Source of the DNA: Candidatus Helarchaeota archaeon
Lineage (GTDB): Archaea; Asgardarchaeota; Lokiarchaeia; Helarchaeales; HEL-GB-A
Reading direction: 5' to 3'
Length of the DNA: 20,907 nucleotides
Assembly (NCBI GenBank): GCA_013375455.1
Contig: JABXJT010000084.1
Span: forward strand, 1 to 20,907
Shown piece after piece: positions 8,016-20,907 of this stretch. The position numbers and the translations under genes were made by a program. Under the pieces are notes generated by a model. It was not told the origin of the DNA. It saw nothing but the letters and a program-made list of their open reading frames with translations, and ran no database searches. How positions within the stretch are numbered: position 1 is the first letter of the stretch; every line of letters starts with the position of its first letter.

Positions 8016-8027
8016 CTTTTTTAAAAC
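8016..8027 (+). promoter_or_regulatory. TATA box of the 5S locus
   Basis: CTTTTTTAAAAC is a TATA-like element whose expected start, about 25 bases downstream, falls near 8047. That is the first base of the 13-bp inverted repeat enclosing the 5S sequence. The coincidence supports a primary transcript that begins with the repeat. Confidence 0.5.
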
Positions 8028-8046
8028 TAAATCACTTTCTTTGAAT

Positions 8047-8261
8047 TGGATTAGATTTGAGTTGAGATTCACGCCGACTTATACTCTCCGATGAGTTCGG
8101 TGGGTACTGTAAAAGCTCACATACGTTGCGGTTGGTACTGTAGTACGAGAGTCTACGGGAAGGCCGTAAAGCTGAACTTTGGTTCGGTCATAGCTGTGAG
8201 GTAACACCCGTTCTCATCCCGAACACGGCAGAGTGGATCGCATACCTACAAATCTAATCCA
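8047..8261 (+). repeat. 13-bp perfect inverted repeat bracketing the 5S gene
   Basis: TGGATTAGATTTG at 8047-8059 and CAAATCTAATCCA at 8249-8261 are exact reverse complements, so the transcript ends would pair and enclose the whole 5S RNA. Inside, GTGGGTA (8100-8106) can pair with TACCTAC (8243-8249) with one G-U, as an alternative or extension. The 40-base leader between the stems holds its own weak hairpin (ACTC/GAGT). The role as a processing stem is inferred. Confidence 0.75.
8111..8231 (+). rRNA. rrf: 5S ribosomal RNA, circularly permuted gene
   Basis: The 3' half of 5S (helix II 3' strand, helices IV and V, helix I 3' strand) comes first and the 5' half (helix I 5' strand, helix II 5' strand, helix III) second. 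Landmarks: AAGCTCACA (8113-8121), GGTACTGTAGTACGAG and TACGGGAA in the first part; CATAGC (8189-8194), AACACCCGT and CATCCCGAACACGG (8215-8228) in the second. Helices: I CTGAAC/GTTCGG (8172-8177/8182-8187) capped by TTTG; II CTCACA/TGTGAG (8116-8121/8195-8200); III CCGT/ACGG (8208-8211/8225-8228); IV CTGTAG/CTACGG (8138-8143/8153-8158); V TGCGG/CCGTA (8127-8131/8164-8168). Joining 8231 to 8111 gives CACGGCAGAAAAGCTCAC, the same length as the loop in ordinary archaeal 5S, and an RNA of 121 nt. New ends lie between helix III and helix II, uncertain by about two bases. Confidence 0.85.
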
Positions 8262-8285
8262 CCTTTTCTTTTCTATCCTTTTCTC
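8262..8285 (+). terminator. Pyrimidine-rich terminator of the 5S locus
   Basis: Directly after the inverted repeat there are runs of T broken by C (CCTTTTCTTTTCTATCCTTTTC), typical of archaeal terminators. This limits the 5S transcript to about 8047-8280 and rules out a missing standard 3' half further downstream. Confidence 0.55.
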
Positions 8286-8381
8286 TAACCGTTTCATTAG
8301 TGATCCTAATAGAAGTTAATTGAGGAGCTTATTTAAAAAACTTCAAATATTCTTGTAGATATATTACCATAAACTCAGCTC

Positions 8382-8549
8382 GGGGCTGTAATCTAGAGGC
8401 TATGATGCTGGGCTCCAGAAGGACTTTAGAATAGGGTCTGCTGACGAAAGGATGACGAGCTTTTGGAGCGGGCCTGCTAGTGAGACCCAGGGAACGCCTT
8501 TTGAAGGCGTTTCGGGTATTTTTCAGGGGTTCGAGTCCCCTCAGCCCCA
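8382..8549 (+). tRNA. tRNA-Trp(CCA) with two introns
   Basis: Acceptor GGGGCTG (8382-8388) pairs with CAGCCCC (8542-8548), with A73 as discriminator. Anticodon stem is CTGGG (8408-8412) with CCCAG (8486-8490). The loop begins CTCCAG, giving anticodon CCA at 8415-8417. T arm is AGGGG-TTCGAGT-CCCCT (8525-8541). About 66 bases interrupt the anticodon loop after position 37, and about 29 extra bases interrupt the variable region (8491-8524), where AACGCC/GGCGTT forms a hairpin. Removing about 95 bases gives a 73-nt tRNA. The exact splice sites are not resolved: CTCC/GGAG (8413-8416/8465-8468) could be a bulge-helix-bulge core but leaves extra bases. The large intron carries box D-like CTGA and box C-like ATGACGA. 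Confidence 0.88.
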
Positions 8550-8561
8550 CTGTTCTAGTTT

Positions 8562-8665
8562 GGGCGGGTAGTCTAGCCTGGTATGATTCTGGGTTTGGGA
8601 CCCAGAGATCGTGGGTTCGAAAAAGCCCTCCAGATCGGAGGGCTTCGGGATTCCCATCCCGCCCA
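8562..8665 (+). tRNA. tRNA-Pro(TGG) with a T-loop intron
   Basis: Acceptor GGGCGGG (8562-8568) pairs with CCCGCCC (8658-8664), discriminator A. Anticodon arm is CTGGG-TTTGGGA-CCCAG with TGG at 8596-8598. Variable region is AGATC. T stem GTGGG (8611-8615) pairs with CCCAT (8653-8657). The T loop TTCGAA is interrupted by about 30 bases (8622-8651) containing a perfect 8-bp hairpin, AGCCCTCC/GGAGGGCT (8624-8631/8637-8644). Removing it leaves 74 nt with a normal seven-base T loop. The position (59/60) is non-canonical and the same as in tRNA-Met below. Confidence 0.92.
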
Positions 8666-8799: not shown

Positions 8800-9513
8800 G
8801 TGCTAATAGACGAAAATTACTTCGAAAATATTAATAACAAAGAGAAGGCATACTGGCTTGGCTTTTTGTATGCTGATGGCTGTATGCATATTTATTCTAA
8901 AAATAATCGCAAATTAAGCTTCAAAATCCATAAAAGGGAAGAATTCGTAATCGATAGGTTCCTAAAATCTTTAAATGCAGAAGGGATTAAAAAATACTAT
9001 TATGATAACACGGTTTACATCAAGTTTGGCAATAAAAAATTAACCTTAGATTTATTAAAACACGGCTTGGTTCCTAGAAAATCCAAAATAATTGAATACC
9101 CCGATTTAAATTCTTATGAATTAGAACTCGCATTTTTACTTGGATATTATGATGGGGATGGGCAACAAAAAACAACGAGAATTAGCTCAGGTAGTAAGCA
9201 GTTCTTGGAAAAAATAAAGAAAAAATTTCAATTAAATAATAAAGTTTTAATCCAAAAAAATCGAGGAATCTGTTACTATATGTGTTTGGGAGTAAATTTA
9301 TTCAACGCAATGATGAACAACTATAAACACTCCATCCAAAGAAAAAGACGGTATTTTTGTACTAAAGATGAAAAAGCAAGACGAATGAGAAATTCATTAA
9401 AGGAATTTGATGGGAAAAAAAATTTAATATTACAAAGGAAAAACTTGAAAAAATTGTGTGGGAAAAACCTTCATCTCAAATCGCAGAGGAATATGGTGTT
9501 TCAGGGCGATTAA
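8800..9513 (+). CDS. LAGLIDADG homing endonuclease, frame interrupted
   Basis: A two-motif LAGLIDADG endonuclease-like protein with GTG start (NYFENINNKEKAYWLGF at the N-terminus). The motifs are LGFLYADG (about 21-28) and LLGYYDGDG (about 112-120), each with the catalytic acidic residue. Such enzymes cut long DNA sites and mobilise introns or inteins. This one is free-standing, lying between intron-bearing tRNA genes rather than inside a recognised intron. The frame changes at an eight-A run (9415-9422). One extra A would continue the frame into a 58-residue helix-turn-helix tail (see next entry), giving about 266 residues. As written the last 30 residues are out of phase. Sequencing error, slippage (A-AAA-AAT precedes the switch) or decay are all possible. 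A TATA-like TTTTAAAATC lies near 8738-8747. Confidence 0.8.
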   Translation: MLIDENYFENINNKEKAYWLGFLYADGCMHIYSKNNRKLSFKIHKREEFVIDRFLKSLNAEGIKKYYYDNTVYIKFGNKKLTLDLLKHGLVPRKSKIIEYPDLNSYELELAFLLGYYDGDGQQKTTRISSGSKQFLEKIKKKFQLNNKVLIQKNRGICYYMCLGVNLFNAMMNNYKHSIQRKRRYFCTKDEKARRMRNSLKEFDGKKNLILQRKNLKKLCGKNLHLKSQRNMVFQGD

Positions 9514-9671: not shown

Positions 9672-9807
9672 AGGGCGATTCAAGTGATTGAGTACTACAA
9701 TATTTAAGAATATTTAATCTTTATTCATCTATAGCAAAAGAATAAAAAGTAGTGTGCCCATTGGATATTAAAAATCTTCGGGAAGAAGATTAGCCGAGCA
9801 GACGCAA

Positions 9808-10006
9808 GCCGGGGTCGCTCAAAGCGCGGAGCGCGGAGCCCGTGCTGGCAAAGCCTGGTTACAATTGTAACCATCATGATGGAATGACCACAGCGCCGGA
9901 CTCATAAGGTAAAACTGTTAATGCGATGTAACGGCCTGTGAAATCCGGAGATCGTGGGTTCGAAAAGCTCCTGTTTGCCAGGAGTTCGGAACGCCCACCC
10001 CCGGCA
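9808..10006 (+). tRNA. Elongator tRNA-Met(CAT) with four introns
   Basis: Acceptor GCCGGGG (9808-9814) pairs with CCCCGGC (9999-10005), discriminator A. The G1-C72 start and acceptor sequence match elongator Met, not initiator. Exons: GCTCA (9817-9821), GCCTGGT (9853-9859), ACAGCG-CCGGA-CTCATA (9890-9906), ATCCGG-AGATC-GTGGG-TTCGAA (9943-9964), then G-CCCAC and the acceptor end. Introns: about 9822-9852 (D loop; GCGCGG/CCCGTGC hairpin), 9860-9889 (D loop; two palindromes, with TGGT/ACCA pairing at the borders), 9907-9942 (canonical 37/38; CTGTTA/TAACGG), 9965-9992 (T loop; CTCCTG/CAGGAG). Removing 31+30+36+28 bases leaves 74 nt. Borders may shift by a base or two. A TATA-like GATATTAAAAATC lies near 9763-9775. 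Confidence 0.88.
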
Positions 10007-10052
10007 TCTAACAGATTCCGTCACAGATTAGCGCCCCAAAAATATAATTTTT

Positions 10053-10201
10053 GCAGAGGTAGCCAAGCCTGGTAAACGGAAACTGGAACGTGGGTCAGTT
10101 TATCAGCCAAACGGCGCTGGACTTAAGATCCAGTCTCGAAGGAGATTGAAACGACGAGTCGTTTGGACCTGTTTCCGTGGGTTCGAATCCCACCCTCTGC
10201 A
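10053..10201 (+). tRNA. tRNA-Leu(TAA) with two introns
   Basis: Acceptor GCAGAGG (10053-10059) pairs with CCTCTGC (10194-10200), discriminator A. Anticodon arm is CTGGA-CTTAAGA-TCCAG with TAA at 10124-10126. The long variable arm TCTC-GAAG-GAGA (10134-10145) marks a class II tRNA. T arm is GTGGG-TTCGAAT-CCCAC. A 35-base intron lies in the D loop, where AAACGG is repeated at 10074-10079 and 10109-10114 and AAACTG/CAGTTT forms a hairpin. A second intron of about 27 bases lies between variable arm and T stem, with AAACGA/TCGTTT. Removing both gives about 87 nt, normal for Leu. It probably shares the tRNA-Met transcript, 46 bases upstream. Confidence 0.88.
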
Positions 10202-14517: not shown

Positions 14518-14618
14518 AGAATGAATCAGTGATTTGAAAAAATTTTCATTACCCCTCATATTTAAAGGATTAATTTTTTCCTTTATATATTATTTATTTT
14601 GTCGGCTAAAATTCGAGG

Positions 14619-14629
14619 ATATATATACC
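14619..14629 (+). promoter_or_regulatory. TATA box of the giant surface protein gene
   Basis: GATATATATAC about 50-58 bases before the ATG predicts a start near 14650 and a leader of about 27 bases ending in AGGGGAAGC, a good ribosome site. Confidence 0.5.
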
Positions 14630-14676
14630 ATACGTATAGTAAAATAAATATCAAGACTTCAAAGTATAGGGGAAGC

Positions 14677-17600
14677 ATGGGGATTTGCGATCATAGAAGA
14701 AATTTCAGGACTTTGGTCATGATTTTATTTGTCATATTGATTGCATTACTAGTTTTCAGCCTGATAAATTTAAAGAAAGAATTTGGGTGTGTTTCACAAG
14801 AAAGACTAAGCTCGAGCGGTTTTAATGATTTAACTATAGATATAAGAGAGAATTTTAATTCTAGTGTTTTGGATTCAAAATGGAATTGGCAATCTGACTC
14901 GCAAAATATTTCAAGTTGGAGTTTAAATGCAAATTCAGGATATTTAAGGATAACCAGTCCTAAGGTACTAACCAGCTGGCAGTGGGAAATAACGGATGTT
15001 CCGTACATGTACCAAACGTTACCAGAGGGGAATTGGCAGATTGAGATACATGTTAATGAGCCGACAGCGAACGAGTTTGCAAATGGAATAATCTTGTATA
15101 AGGATTTTAATTATTGGATGATATTTGCTAATTCTGTGGATAGTGCAGGGGAGATGAATTTGCTCAGAATCAAAGAGGGAACGGTACCTGATAATATGTG
15201 TGGAGGGGGGCGCGGAAATAACATGCCCTATTTGCGGTTAAAAAAAATGGGCTCGTTGTATTATTGCTTTGGATCTTTGGATGGAAACACTTGGAGCGAT
15301 TTTGGGAATTGTTATACTGATACATCTTACATCCGAATGGGTATCTGGGCTCAGAGTCACTGGTCCGGAACTTTTAGTTCGGACTTTGATTATTTTTACT
15401 TTGAAGAATTATCTGAAGAACCTCCACCACCCGATCCGAATGATAAGCAACCTCTTTGGAGTTATGATACCGGAAATATAGTTTATGCTGTCGAGATGAC
15501 TCCGGACGGTCAAAGTATCGTCGCGGGAACGGGGAACAGCGTCCATTTGTGTGATAAGGATTCATCAACGCCTATATGGTCGTTCGATACAGGCGATGTA
15601 GTTACAGCAGTAGACATTTCTGATGATGGGAATTATATAGTTTCAGCGGGAGGTGTTCTAGACCATCCTGGGGACGTATTTTTATGGCAACGAGATAGTT
15701 CTACACCTTTATGGAAATTCACGGGGACGGGGAATTTTGCATCTATAGCGATATCAGCCGATGGACAATATTTCGCAGCAGGCGATCGATTAGCGAATGA
15801 ACTACATTTTTGGCATAAAGATAGTTCAGTACCACTGTGGTCTTTTAATGCAGTTTCAGGAAATTGGGAATCAGTCGCAATCTCTGCGGATGGAAATTAT
15901 TTAGTTGCTAGTGATGGCTTCTATCATGACTACGTCTATTTCTTCCATACAACTAGTCCCGTACCCCTCTGGAGTTATGAATGTGGATCGGATGTTTGGT
16001 CGGTAGATATGACCCCTGACGGGCGATATATAACCGCATCAAGTAAAGATCGGCGGATCTATTCGTGGGAAAGCTCATCTTCAACACCTCTATGGTCATA
16101 TACTACGGGACATGAGGCATTCTCAGTTTCGATATCGAATGATGGGCAATATGTTGCAGGGGGAGGCAGAGATAAGACCATTCGTTTATTTGACCATTTT
16201 GATTCAACGCCAGTTTGGAATTATTTGTTAGATTCAGAAATTTGGGCAGAACGCGCAGTGTCTTTATCTGGAAATGGTGAATATATCGCAGTTGGGACTC
16301 AAAACTCGAAAATTTATTGCTTCCATAGAAGTAATTCTAATCCCCTTTGGAATTTTTCGACAATTACTGGACGAGTGGCAGCCGTAGCACTATCTGAAAA
16401 CGGGCAATACTTAGTAGCTGGAGCGAAGGATCATAAAGTTTACCTATTTGAAAATTTTGACTCTCAAGAACCTTCACAAGATGATATCCCCCCTGAGCAG
16501 GTTACAGGGCTTACAGTCACAGCGGAATCCATAGGGAATTGCCTCACACTTGTATGGAATCCAAGTATTGCGCCAGATTTTTGGTATTATAAGATATACC
16601 GGAGCACTACTTGTGGTTTCACACCTGGACCTGGGAACTTCCTTGCAACTTCCATGACCAACACTTACCTCGATATTGGCTTGACAGATGATATAACATA
16701 TTACTATCGAATTTCTGCTTTGGATGAAGTGCCGAATGAGGGGACTTATTCCCAGGAGGTCAGTGGCGTGCCTGGTGACTCCGAACCCCCTGCTAAAGTG
16801 GTCGGAGTCTCCGTTGCCGTGGTCGCTGCGGGCAACGCCTTGAACCTGACCTGGACCGCCAGCGCGGCCACTGATTTCGTGGAGTACTGGGTCTATCGGA
16901 GCGAGATCTCCGGCTTCATCCCCAGCGGCGCGACCCTCATTGCCACCCCTGCGACCAACCAGTACCTCGATTTCGTTCTCGTGGATGACGTGACCTATTA
17001 CTACCGGATCTCCGCGGTCGATGAAGTGCCAAACGAGGGAATTCGTTCCGATGAGAAGAGTGGCACACCGCACGATTCAGAACCGCCCTGGAAAGTTATG
17101 GGTCTTTCCATTTCCGATCCTCAAATCGGGGATACTCTTGATCTTTCATGGACGACAAATAGCGAACCTGATGTTGCAGGCTACAGAATTTATAGGGAGA
17201 TATTTTCAGGCTTCACGCCAGGATCAGGGAACTTTATCGTTGAAACTGTTGAAATTAGTTATAGAGACACGGGCTTAACGGATGGACAACCCTATTATTA
17301 CCGAGTTAGGGCAATCGATGAAGTCCCGAACGAGGGATCTCCTTCTGATGAGTTATATGGAGTCCCCCATGATTCAATGCCTCCAGCGAAAGTTAGGGGA
17401 TTCACGCAAACCATTGTCTCTCCTGATACTATTTCATTATCTTGGACAGCAAATACGGAGCCAGACCTAGCGAATTATAAAGTTTACCGAAGCACCACGT
17501 CTGGGTTTACGCCTGGAGCAGTGTACCTCATTGCGTGTCCCACAACGAATTATTATCTAGATTCTGGCTTGATAGAAGGACAAACCTATTATTATAGAAT

Positions 17601-20600
17601 TACAGCCGTTGATGAAGTCCCGAACGAAGGGACCCCCTCTGACGAAGCCAACGGGAGACCACCACCCGTGGATCCTCCCGCAAAGGTCACTGGAGTTTCT
17701 ATTTCAGTAGTTCCCGAGGGAAACGCCCTTTCTCTTTCTTGGACGGCGAATACGGAGCCAGATTTAGCGAATTATAAGGTGTATCGAAGTATGACCCCTG
17801 GCTTCATACCTAGTCTTGGGAACTTCGTTGCAACTTCCATGACCAACACTTACCTCGATACTGGCTTGACAGATGATCTAACATATTACTATCGAATTTC
17901 TGCTTTGGATGAAGTGCCGAACGAAGGGACTCCCTCTGATCAGGCCAGCGGGACGCCTCACGATTCATGCGCACCTGAAAAAGTATTAGGAGTTTCCATC
18001 GCAGTAATCGCGACCGGAAATCAGCTGAACCTGACTTGGACGGCCAGCACGGCTGCTGATTTCGTTAGATACAACGTTCACCGCAGCACCACGTCCGGCT
18101 TCACGCCCAGTGGCGCGACCCTCATTGCCAGTCCGGCAACCTACCAATATCTGGATTCTGGTTTAACAGATGGTATCATTTATTATTATCGCATCTCGGC
18201 TGTAGATGAGGTGCCGAACGAGGGTAGCTATTGCGATGAAATAAGTGCGTGTTCGATAGATATTGTCGCCCCCAACCAAGTAACAGGGGTGACAATCGCT
18301 GCTGTAGCTGTGGGAAATGCTCTAACTCTTTGTTGGGATACAAGTGTCGCCTCGGATTTGGTAGAATATCGAATATACCGAAGCACTACCAGCGGCGGTC
18401 CTTATAGCAATATTGCAAATAGTACACCCGCTTCATATACGGATTCAGGCTTAATAGATGGAACTACCTATTACTATGTGGTTTCTGCAGTTGATGAAGT
18501 ACCCAATGAAGGATTTATTTCACAAGAGGTAAGTGGGGTGCCTCGAGATACTACTCCCCCCTCTAAGGTTACGGGGGTTGCAACTTCTGTTAATCCTGAC
18601 AATTCGATTACCCTGAGTTGGACTGCAAGCGCTGCCACGGATTTTGACCATTATAATATATATCGTAGTACTACTTCAGGCTTCGTACCAGGACCCATAA
18701 ACCTCATAGCCACGTCTGTTACCAATTCGTATACAGATAATAATCGCTTGGAGAGGACTAATTACTATTACCGAATTTCGGCTTTGGATGAAGTACCGAA
18801 TGAGGGGACTTATTCCAATGAAGTCGGGAACTATCTCCCCCGCCCTGAGCCACCTCAAGTCACTGGAGTTACAGTAAAGGTGAGGCCAGAAGGGAATGGG
18901 CTTGATATTTCTTGGACTGATGCGGGGTGGTACGTGGTGGGATATCGGGTCTATCGAAGTACAATTTCTGGTTCCACACCCGGACTAGCGAATCTAGTAG
19001 CTAGTGTTGCTAATAATTGGTATAATGATACGGGACTGTGCGATGGAACCACATATTATTACCGAATTGTGGCCTATGATGAAGTGCCAAATTTTGGGAC
19101 AGCTTCATCTGAAGTATCAGGTACGCCTCAAGATTTCGTGGCACCTAACAAAGTGATTGGTTTAACAGTAACGAATCCAACAACTGGAAAACAACTTGAC
19201 GTCTCATGGACGGCAAATACAGAAGCAGACCTTGCCGGCTATAGAATTTATCGACGAAATGAATCTGGTTCTTACAGCTTGCTTACAACAGTGGGTAGTA
19301 TCACCTCATCTTATCAAGATATCAGTGTGACAGACGGTGTAACCTATTTTTACAAAGTTGCTGCCTATGATGAAGTGCCTAATGAGGGGGGCAATTCGTC
19401 CGAAGTAGGCGGAATATCCACAAATGTTTTACCACCCGCCAGGGTTACTGGATTAACTATAGTCAGTTCAAGTAAAACATCCTTGTATTTATCTTGGACT
19501 CCTAATACTGAACCTGATTTGAAATGGTATAATATTTATCGAAGTACCTCACGAGGATTCACCCCTGAACCTGCAAATAAAATCGCAAATGCTACAACAC
19601 CATATTATAATGATACTGGGTTAATTTATTTGCAGAAATATTATTATCGGGTATCAGCAGAGGACATTGCGGACCTTGAAGGACCTTTTTCCAGTCAAAA
19701 AGCAGGTCCTGGAGAAATATTTTTGCCAAAACCAGTTAATGTCAAGGTTATGGTCATAACCACCGGAAATACGTTATATCTTAATTGGAATAATGTTTCT
19801 GGAGCAGATACGTACAATATCTATCGGGATATTGTACCTGGATTTATTCCAACACCGGAAAGATTCATCAAGAACGTTGATACTAATGAAACCTATGATA
19901 TCGGTTTGACCGATAATGTCACTTACTATTATCGCATCGCTGGCGTATCACCCGAATATGTTGAAGGGCACATCTCTGATGAAGTGAACAACACGCCTGT
20001 TGATGTGGATGCGCCACCTCAAGTCACGGGGCTGATCGTGACCAATCCGGGGACTGGGAATCGATTGACCCTGTCCTGGAACGCCAGCACGGTCGCCGAC
20101 TTCAATCACTACCGCATCTATCGGAACGGATCCTTGCTTACCACGCGGACCACCACTACTTACACGGACACGGTTTTACTAGATAATCTTGTCTATCTCT
20201 ACGAGATTTCCGCAGTGGATGACGGCGGCCCGGTCCCGAACGAAGGACCGAATTCCACCGCGGTTGCTGGAACGCCCACGGATGTAACACCGCCAGCACA
20301 AGTCACGGGCGTCACGATCACGGTCATCCCAACCGGGAACCAGCTCAACATCACCTGGACGGCCAGCACTGCAGTTGATTTCGATCATTATAAGGTGTAT
20401 CGGAACACAACCTACGAGTTTACCCCCACACCTGCAAATTTGGTGGCAAACACTACCATTAATTATTACCTAGATACTAATGTGATAGTTCGTATGACAT
20501 ATTATTATCGGATTTCTGCTGTTGATGAAGCTGGAAACGAAGGGGCAGCTTCTGATACACTGGGGGGTTATCCTATTGTCTCTCATACGGTGAGTTTAAT

Positions 20601-20907
20601 AGTTTGGACAAGTAATCAAACCACTTTCGTTCGTACTACAATAACATTTGGCAGCGGCGGCTTTCACGTTTCAAGTTGGGGAGAAATAATAAGGGATGGT
20701 AATAATTTATGGGTGAATGCTGAAGTTTGGAGATTAACAGGCGCTGCTTTCACACAAGCTTACTGGGATATCTCACATAATTATGAAATCGAACATTTGC
20801 CAAGCGGAAATTATAATTTCTTATTTAAAACCTGGGATAATGATATCGTAAGCATAGATTTCCTCTCAAAGGAAATAATCACGGTCATCCCCACAGGAAA
20901 TGCCCTT
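14677..20907 (+). CDS. Giant cell-surface protein: lectin-like domain, 8-blade propeller, 14 FN3 domains (3' partial)
   Basis: An uninterrupted frame of at least 2077 codons, leaving the window without a stop. Residues 1-12 are basic and 13-32 form a membrane segment (LVMILFVILIALLVFSLI), a signal anchor. Residues about 55-243 look like a concanavalin/LamG-type sandwich (ENFNSSVLDSKWNW, FDYFYFEEL). A Pro-rich linker leads to eight repeats of about 40 residues at 259-595, each shaped like TPLWSF-DTG...VAIS-DG-YIVAG...VYLF, a PQQ/WD40-like propeller. From about 604 to 1963 come 14 FN3 domains of about 97 residues, each opening with a variant of PPAKVTGV and most carrying Y-Y-Y-R-I-S-A-V-D-E-V-P-N-E-G. 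The last 110 residues are a different beta-rich domain (TVSLIVWTSNQTTFVR). Likely an adhesin or envelope protein; ligand unknown. Confidence 0.9.
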   Translation, partial: MGICDHRRNFRTLVMILFVILIALLVFSLINLKKEFGCVSQERLSSSGFNDLTIDIRENFNSSVLDSKWNWQSDSQNISSWSLNANSGYLRITSPKVLTSWQWEITDVPYMYQTLPEGNWQIEIHVNEPTANEFANGIILYKDFNYWMIFANSVDSAGEMNLLRIKEGTVPDNMCGGGRGNNMPYLRLKKMGSLYYCFGSLDGNTWSDFGNCYTDTSYIRMGIWAQSHWSGTFSSDFDYFYFEELSEEPPPPDPNDKQPLWSYDTGNIVYAVEMTPDGQSIVAGTGNSVHLCDKDSSTPIWSFDTGDVVTAVDISDDGNYIVSAGGVLDHPGDVFLWQRDSSTPLWKFTGTGNFASIAISADGQYFAAGDRLANELHFWHKDSSVPLWSFNAVSGNWESVAISADGNYLVASDGFYHDYVYFFHTTSPVPLWSYECGSDVWSVDMTPDGRYITASSKDRRIYSWESSSSTPLWSYTTGHEAFSVSISNDGQYVAGGGRDKTIRLFDHFDSTPVWNYLLDSEIWAERAVSLSGNGEYIAVGTQNSKIYCFHRSNSNPLWNFSTITGRVAAVALSENGQYLVAGAKDHKVYLFENFDSQEPSQDDIPPEQVTGLTVTAESIGNCLTLVWNPSIAPDFWYYKIYRSTTCGFTPGPGNFLATSMTNTYLDIGLTDDITYYYRISALDEVPNEGTYSQEVSGVPGDSEPPAKVVGVSVAVVAAGNALNLTWTASAATDFVEYWVYRSEISGFIPSGATLIATPATNQYLDFVLVDDVTYYYRISAVDEVPNEGIRSDEKSGTPHDSEPPWKVMGLSISDPQIGDTLDLSWTTNSEPDVAGYRIYREIFSGFTPGSGNFIVETVEISYRDTGLTDGQPYYYRVRAIDEVPNEGSPSDELYGVPHDSMPPAKVRGFTQTIVSPDTISLSWTANTEPDLANYKVYRSTTSGFTPGAVYLIACPTTNYYLDSGLIEGQTYYYRITAVDEVPNEGTPSDEANGRPPPVDPPAKVTGVSISVVPEGNALSLSWTANTEPDLANYKVYRSMTPGFIPSLGNFVATSMTNTYLDTGLTDDLTYYYRISALDEVPNEGTPSDQASGTPHDSCAPEKVLGVSIAVIATGNQLNLTWTASTAADFVRYNVHRSTTSGFTPSGATLIASPATYQYLDSGLTDGIIYYYRISAVDEVPNEGSYCDEISACSIDIVAPNQVTGVTIAAVAVGNALTLCWDTSVASDLVEYRIYRSTTSGGPYSNIANSTPASYTDSGLIDGTTYYYVVSAVDEVPNEGFISQEVSGVPRDTTPPSKVTGVATSVNPDNSITLSWTASAATDFDHYNIYRSTTSGFVPGPINLIATSVTNSYTDNNRLERTNYYYRISALDEVPNEGTYSNEVGNYLPRPEPPQVTGVTVKVRPEGNGLDISWTDAGWYVVGYRVYRSTISGSTPGLANLVASVANNWYNDTGLCDGTTYYYRIVAYDEVPNFGTASSEVSGTPQDFVAPNKVIGLTVTNPTTGKQLDVSWTANTEADLAGYRIYRRNESGSYSLLTTVGSITSSYQDISVTDGVTYFYKVAAYDEVPNEGGNSSEVGGISTNVLPPARVTGLTIVSSSKTSLYLSWTPNTEPDLKWYNIYRSTSRGFTPEPANKIANATTPYYNDTGLIYLQKYYYRVSAEDIADLEGPFSSQKAGPGEIFLPKPVNVKVMVITTGNTLYLNWNNVSGADTYNIYRDIVPGFIPTPERFIKNVDTNETYDIGLTDNVTYYYRIAGVSPEYVEGHISDEVNNTPVDVDAPPQVTGLIVTNPGTGNRLTLSWNASTVADFNHYRIYRNGSLLTTRTTTTYTDTVLLDNLVYLYEISAVDDGGPVPNEGPNSTAVAGTPTDVTPPAQVTGVTITVIPTGNQLNITWTASTAVDFDHYKVYRNTTYEFTPTPANLVANTTINYYLDTNVIVRMTYYYRISAVDEAGNEGAASDTLGGYPIVSHTVSLIVWTSNQTTFVRTTITFGSGGFHVSSWGEIIRDGNNLWVNAEVWRLTGAAFTQAYWDISHNYEIEHLPSGNYNFLFKTWDNDIVSIDFLSKEIITVIPTGNAL
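16489..20565 (+). repeat. Tandem array of 14 FN3-coding repeats (about 291 bp each)
   Basis: Fourteen in-frame units, each marked at its start by a PPxKVTGV-like octet and near its end by DEVPNEG or a variant. Units 12 and 13 are the most divergent (LPKPVNVKV; SPEYVEGH in place of DEVPNEG). Some pairs are nearly identical over short stretches and several units are GC-rich relative to neighbours, signs of exchange between repeats. Confidence 0.88.

Follow-up and report, generated by a model that had tools for sequence, protein, structure and literature searches.

The window, i.e., the whole stretch of 20,907 nucleotides that was analysed (contig JABXJT010000084.1 of the Candidatus Helarchaeota assembly GCA_013375455.1), carried a complete but permuted 5S rRNA within 8079-8231, all features of the locus being located on the plus strand. 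The RNA 8047-8261 displayed the segment order helix II (3' strand), V, IV, V, I (3' strand), loop UUUG, I (5' strand), II (5' strand), and III, and it additionally contained a 13-bp terminal stem (5' arm 8047-8059, paired in the fold with 3' arm 8249-8261) plus a bulge-helix-bulge (BHB) motif, with the 5S helices enclosed between. A TATA-like box TTTTTTAAAAC, likely a promoter element, was located at 8017-8027, and a T-rich tract was found 3' of 8261; the identical TATA-like string was present upstream of the 5S copy of the relative Hel_GB_A, which also had a matching perfect stem at the position of the terminal stem. The 5S gene was adjacent to a gene encoding a DUF1512 protein, which was 83% identical to that of one named Helarchaeota, and the other proteins encoded in the window included a Ras-type GTPase, FTR, Fer4, CCG, and Toprim (DnaG-like).

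Two tRNA-like genes, both with introns, lay directly 3' of the 5S gene: (i) 8381-8549, read as tRNA-Trp (the ARAGORN label on the raw stretch was tRNA-Ser), and (ii) 8562-8664, a tRNA-Pro (TGG) that was matched by ARAGORN only once its insert, apparently located in the T loop, had been removed. Two more stretches that resemble tRNAs and contain several inserts were found within 9785-10200; ARAGORN gave no match in the first and a doubtful tRNA-Pro with intron in the second. A LAGLIDADG endonuclease-like reading frame (8800-9513) was located between the tRNA genes, and an open frame of >2100 aa with fibronectin type III-like repeats (by eye) occupied 14599-20907 and ran off the window.

The two possible segment orders were distinguished by scoring models. 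Model R2, composed of nine ordinary archaeal 5S sequences only and rotated in silico to the cut of the window, gave 78.7 bits at 8111-8231 vs 29.0 bits for the unrotated Rfam 5S model (RF00001), the latter being below the gathering score of 38 and aligned only in part (5' half, with 43 model positions skipped); in the same run, R2 gave 65.7-91.2 bits on seven other permuted copies and at most 50.6 bits on ordinary loci. The swapped order claimed by the earlier note was thus confirmed, the rotated model scoring far higher as that note had expected, and a poor rotated score, named there as evidence against, was excluded. Rfam also has a family for mitochondrial permuted 5S, mtPerm-5S, and it had no match in the window among the Rfam matches listed, from which overlapping clan matches were omitted.

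The minimum-energy fold of 8040-8270 (z = -4.06; 0 of 200 shuffles equally stable) included the 5S helices, and helices I to V could all be drawn, as had been stated before. Helix II was composed of 8116-8121 (3' strand) and 8195-8200 (5' strand), helix V of 8126-8133 and 8162-8169, and helix IV of 8138-8146 and 8151-8158 (helices V and IV together spanning 8126-8169), while helix III plus loop C occupied 8208-8228; helices II, V, IV, and I were recovered in the fold, helix III with loop C in the Rfam 5S alignment, and helix II covaried across eight copies, with R2 additionally covering helices V and IV and helix III with loop C. Helix I (8171-8188) consisted of its 3' strand 8171-8177, loop UUUG 8178-8181, and its 5' strand 8182-8188; the TTTG loop of the earlier note was correct, but its 6-bp helix I was 7 bp in the fold. 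The window gene is a circularly permuted 5S rRNA gene with rotated segments and fused natural ends.

The comparison was extended to relatives through the neighbouring gene. From an alignment scan of DUF1512, 80 named loci were kept and searched with the window 5S, and eleven loci were read: (i) permuted order near DUF1512 in seven, namely, the Helarchaeota Hel_GB_A, Hel_GB_B, LW55_61, and Meg19 plus Njordarchaeum GB_154, Asgard LC30, and Odinarchaeia RPA3, and (ii) ordinary 5S in four, namely, Hermodarchaeota (L017), Thorarchaeota (L056), and two Methanomethyliaceae (L060 and L080). The look for the same order in relatives, suggested earlier, therefore returned seven named Asgard relatives. 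RF00001 reached its cut-off in 10 of the 17 genomes of the DUF1512 loci and in 0 of the 7 with permuted copies. Across the eight permuted copies, 24 of the 35 consensus pairs were altered on both sides. The Hel_GB_A 5S (L001, 2031-2151) was inverted relative to its neighbours, lying on the strand opposite to the tRNAs and the same as DUF1512, unlike the window 5S, which was on the tRNA strand.

The flanks of the 5S gene displayed a BHB layout, composed of a 4-bp middle helix, a 3-nt bulge on each strand, and then an outer helix. In the window, the 5' side (8066-8079) had the outer helix strand 8066-8072, middle helix strand GCCG 8073-8076, and bulge ACU 8077-8079, and the 3' side (8226-8239) had middle helix strand CGGC 8226-8229, bulge AGA 8230-8232, and outer helix strand 8233-8239; all four middle pairs and a 7-bp outer helix were formed, and only 1 of 300 flank shuffles was equally good. 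The 3' strand of 5S helix III doubled as one strand of the 4-bp helix, pairing there with a leader stretch located beyond the 5S, CGGC 8226-8229 being common to both. The earlier note had not mentioned the BHB, a motif that accounts for how the swapped order could be reversed. No continuous inner helix beside the bulges was found in the eight copies (three pairs in a row at most), and the motif had three parts only. Under the BHB rule, by which the cut separates the second from the third bulge nucleotide and the ends are then joined, the predicted cuts of the window were 8078^8079 in bulge ACU and 8231^8232 in bulge AGA. The predicted joins linked CGGAAG to UUAAG, GGAA to GUUAAG, or GGA to AGUUAAG; the registers differed, and the product, the canonical 5S sequence, was the same in most loci read.

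The BHB signal was also assessed over the permuted loci as a group. In 28 non-redundant loci, 87% of the arm pairs were formed, compared to a mean of 47% and a maximum of 57% with swapped arms (1000 trials), a contrast that is inflated because each locus was given the register in which its own arms paired best. Free of this register bias was the single-base flank-shuffle test on 48 loci, in which the BHB was beaten or matched by at most 3 of 300 shuffles in 36 loci and was no better than chance (>15 of 300 shuffles as good) in eight; among these eight, L165 and L166 were opened elsewhere, L159 had a displaced model end, and L108, L147, L152, L160, and L164 were unexplained or weak. In the Heimdall-block loci L153-L156, the rejoined sequence deviated from the exact GGAAGUUAAG. 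Genome G070 harbored two neighbouring copies whose flanks differed; the outer helix was 10 bp long in both, and 3/4 and 4/4 middle pairs, respectively, were formed. The BHB arms covary outside the mature RNA. EndA was detected in all 12 permuted genomes tested and RtcB in 11 of them (only a short match in G009), with no RtcB found in G066.

As for maturation, there is a strong case that the transcript of this swapped-half 5S gene would be excised at the BHB by tRNA-splicing endonuclease and sealed, likely by RtcB, into a circular 5S with a loop-capped helix I. Transcription would proceed from the TATA-like box 8017-8027, EndA would cut at 8078^8079 and 8231^8232, 8231 would be ligated to 8079 (likely by RtcB), and a second BHB on the closed circle would then remove, in the window copy, the 32-nt insert 8081-8112; the product would be a ring of 121 nt, its loop strand having the usual length of 8 nt, and this ring would be used in the ribosome. 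That the ring stays closed at helix I would be the least certain step.

The 32-nt insert was missing in the seven aligned relatives and is likely a BHB intron spliced from the circle. Its BHB had the middle helix GCAG 8228-8231/CUGU 8107-8110 and the inner helix 8082-8086/8102-8106, while the exon-side helix was missing; shuffled inserts yielded such a motif of this length in 0.56% of 5000 cases. Since GCAG 8228-8231 is used, this motif forms only after the 8231-8079 join, and thus the predicted order is ring first, intron second. Removal of the insert joined CAGUU to AAGCUC, a junction identical in every letter to that of Hel_GB_A, and left an RNA of 121 nt. The earlier proposal of joining 8231 to 8111 in a 121-nt RNA therefore stood as to length (after removal of 8081-8112) and failed as to the 5' end, which is likely 8079, 32 nt upstream. 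A start at 8079 combined with intron 8081-8112 was preferred over the join at 8111, as 8079 is where the outer BHB is predicted to be cut and splicing then yields the Hel_GB_A junction. A second-best motif, defining a 30-nt intron 8082-8111 with middle helix CAGU/ACUG, was rejected; it would leave a 10-nt loop strand. Alternatively, the insert could be retained and enlarge loop B, giving a mature ring of 153 nt; the hairpin fold of 8081-8112 and the missing exon-side helix would fit this, but the exact Hel_GB_A junction upon BHB-rule removal, together with the loop-C inserts of other permuted copies behaving as BHB introns (see below), speaks the other way, and a kept insert is regarded as unlikely, if still deserving some weight.

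According to the available passages of PMC10085705, permuted tRNA genes have reversed fragments and a circular intermediate, and their circularised transcripts are then cut to standard form with normal ends; the 5S, excised and circularised alike, could likewise be reopened in its helix I loop, and the ribosome would then receive an ordinary linear 5S. The capped helix I may set the permuted 5S apart from such tRNAs: a UNCG-type tetraloop was found on helix I in 23 of the 43 parsed copies (relatives not thinned, kinship uncorrected), which suggests that the cap is retained, and no conserved signal for processing was noticed there by eye; reopening is regarded as unlikely, though still of some weight. 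Another alternative is excision by EndA without ligation, by which the ribosome would receive a permuted 5S in linear form, its two ends lying in loop B. Permuted 5S being known from mitochondria in the passages of PMC10085705, internal ends might be tolerable, and the lack of detected RtcB in G066 would be compatible with it; however, RtcB was present in the other 11 genomes tested, the join regained the usual sequence and loop length, and the window intron motif requires the joined circle, so that a linear permuted product appears improbable. The sealed ring with capped helix I remains the preferred product.

The search was also applied to 227 Asgard genomes, together with 398 Thermoproteota genomes as control. 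Model R1, composed of the eight permuted copies, scored 111-135 bits on its own copies and at most 37.8 bits on ordinary 5S of the first set, and its control ceiling was set at 44.9 bits, the best score over the Thermoproteota. None of the Thermoproteota matches of R1 (44.9 bits or less) was accepted as permuted, since they were half-matches to ordinary 5S; the three best of them (L167-L169) were ordinary by Rfam. Scores >44.9 bits were found in 119 of 227 Asgard genomes vs 0 of 398 Thermoproteota, and matches with E <=0.001 in 145 Asgard genomes. RF00001 reached its cut-off in 64 of the 227, five of which were among the 119; the remaining 114 clear permuted genomes, including the single-contig genomes G024 and G130 (the latter read as opened at the second point; see below), had no ordinary 5S over the Rfam cut-off. 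Below the ceiling, all 13 Asgard genomes with 38.5-44.9 bits were read as permuted, none having ordinary 5S over the cut-off: six were opened at point 2, and seven were opened at point 1 and had an intron in loop C. Ordinary 5S over the cut-off was present in 10 of the remaining 13 R1 genomes (E <=0.001). Of the other three, G160 was read as permuted, and G120 and G124 had permuted 5S by model support only. Ordinary 5S only was found in 59 of the 227 genomes and neither kind by R1 and RF00001 in 33, among which G092 had a third opening point and G116 had an R3 match of 88.4 bits; R3 does not separate opening points because it also matches point-1 copies. No 5S of either kind was found in 31 of the 227 by R1, R3, RF00001, and reading. 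When Rfam was run on 20 sources, none of the 16 permuted loci reached the 5S cut-off, while three ordinary controls and L194 did. The search of phage records gave no match.

Both a permuted 5S and an RF00001 match over the cut-off were present in five genomes (G029, G046, G057, G118, and G142). The ordinary 5S of G057, G118, and G142 were rejected as their own, as they look bacterial (by eye) and are on other contigs, and a separate ordinary 5S in G046 was likewise rejected, its Rfam match overlapping the permuted copy of that genome. G029 contained an ordinary-order 5S (L194, 501-638) interrupted, at precisely the site of the permutation junction, by a BHB intron of 23 nt; it was very unlike the permuted copy of G029, and therefore it would be either an evolutionary intermediate or foreign DNA. 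Ordinary 5S genes are nearly excluded from genomes with permuted copies, as tested in relatives. A dead copy or an assembly artefact in the window, with the real 5S elsewhere, is accordingly a most improbable account, opposed by the paired helix changes and the permuted-only genomes; an assembly rearrangement is unlikely, given that many independent assemblies share this order, and it is contradicted for the relatives. Separately, the 4.36-Mb single-contig Asgard genome G095 (L208), which stands beside permuted Loki-block genomes in the genome listing, harbored three near-identical ordinary 5S in tandem.

Further opening points and introns were identified among the permuted genes. The second opening point was located inside loop C in six genomes (G107, G126, G127, G130, G132, and G133), whose copies each gave an RNA of 121 nt and regained the uncut sequence under the BHB rule, and the third, with a fitting BHB, was located before helix III in G092 only. 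All 11 of the Loki-block point-1 copies that were parsed had a 30-31 nt loop-C insert and a 4-bp BHB, and removing the inserts restored CAUC(C/U)GAACCC in all 11. L159 (G168), at 1494-1608 and beyond, was read as a permuted 5S with an additional helix III insert, possibly another intron.

The clade names of the carriers rest on named contigs and on the named records that HypF and RsmB matched. The G024 HypF was 60-67% identical to proteins named Heimdallarchaeaceae; named Hodarchaeales HypF displayed 53-62% identity in 11 genomes (G057-G065, G067, and G068) and at most 47% in the other listed genomes, and 10 of these 11 Hodarchaeales-like genomes were among the 119, with G060 having neither kind; the G130 RsmB was 100% identical to a Promethearchaeota record, a Lokiarchaeia record being among the next matches. 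The carriers would thus comprise Helarchaeota, Njord- and Odinarchaeia, and, by protein matches, Heimdallarchaeaceae, Hodarchaeales, and Loki-like genomes. From the HypF and RsmB matches, permuted genes would therefore occur in lineages discussed as near eukaryotes. Eukaryotic 5S has the ordinary order.

No permuted archaeal 5S gene was recognised in searches of the openly licensed PMC full texts, a collection outside which lie most subscription papers and all preprints. Mitochondrial permuted 5S rRNA was reportedly described by Valach et al. 2014, as cited in PMC10085705; it likewise derives from a circularly permuted 5S gene but is organellar, while that of the window is archaeal, and it is not known to undergo BHB processing. 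Permuted SRP RNA genes are hosted by Thermoproteales and use the BHB motif. The transcript of the permuted archaeal SRP RNA gene is circularised and functions as a circle according to the passages of PMC10085705, which makes it the closest in mechanism to the window 5S, albeit a different RNA. For archaeal 16S and 23S rRNA, excerpts of PMC12918454 and PMC7758197 describe BHB excision and ring closure, circularisation of Asgard 16S and 23S is also reported in those of PMC12918454, and these genes are in ordinary order, unlike the permuted 5S; in the same excerpts, the cultures studied are said not to process 5S in this way. Circular 5S reads with variable ends, possibly part of degradation, are recorded for Halobacterium and Sulfolobus in the portions available of PMC12558985, where the genes are apparently ordinary, in contrast to the permuted ones of Asgards.

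Few known genes are as conserved as that for 5S. A permuted gene was the sole 5S source detected in roughly half, or more, of the Asgard genomes covered by the search; annotation based on Rfam mostly misses such genes. On balance, it is somewhat more probable than otherwise that most Asgards, Heimdallarchaeaceae and Hodarchaeales included, have a circular 5S in the ribosome, obtained only via splicing of a scrambled gene that is opened at three points and has acquired BHB introns, with eukaryotes having ordinary linear 5S, and the order of the 5S gene would then be a new phylogenetic character. If so, tRNA-type splicing would be essential to ribosome building in those Asgards, a circular 5S would reside inside the working ribosome, and 5S gene order would be a scoreable character for Asgard phylogeny and the origin of eukaryotes.
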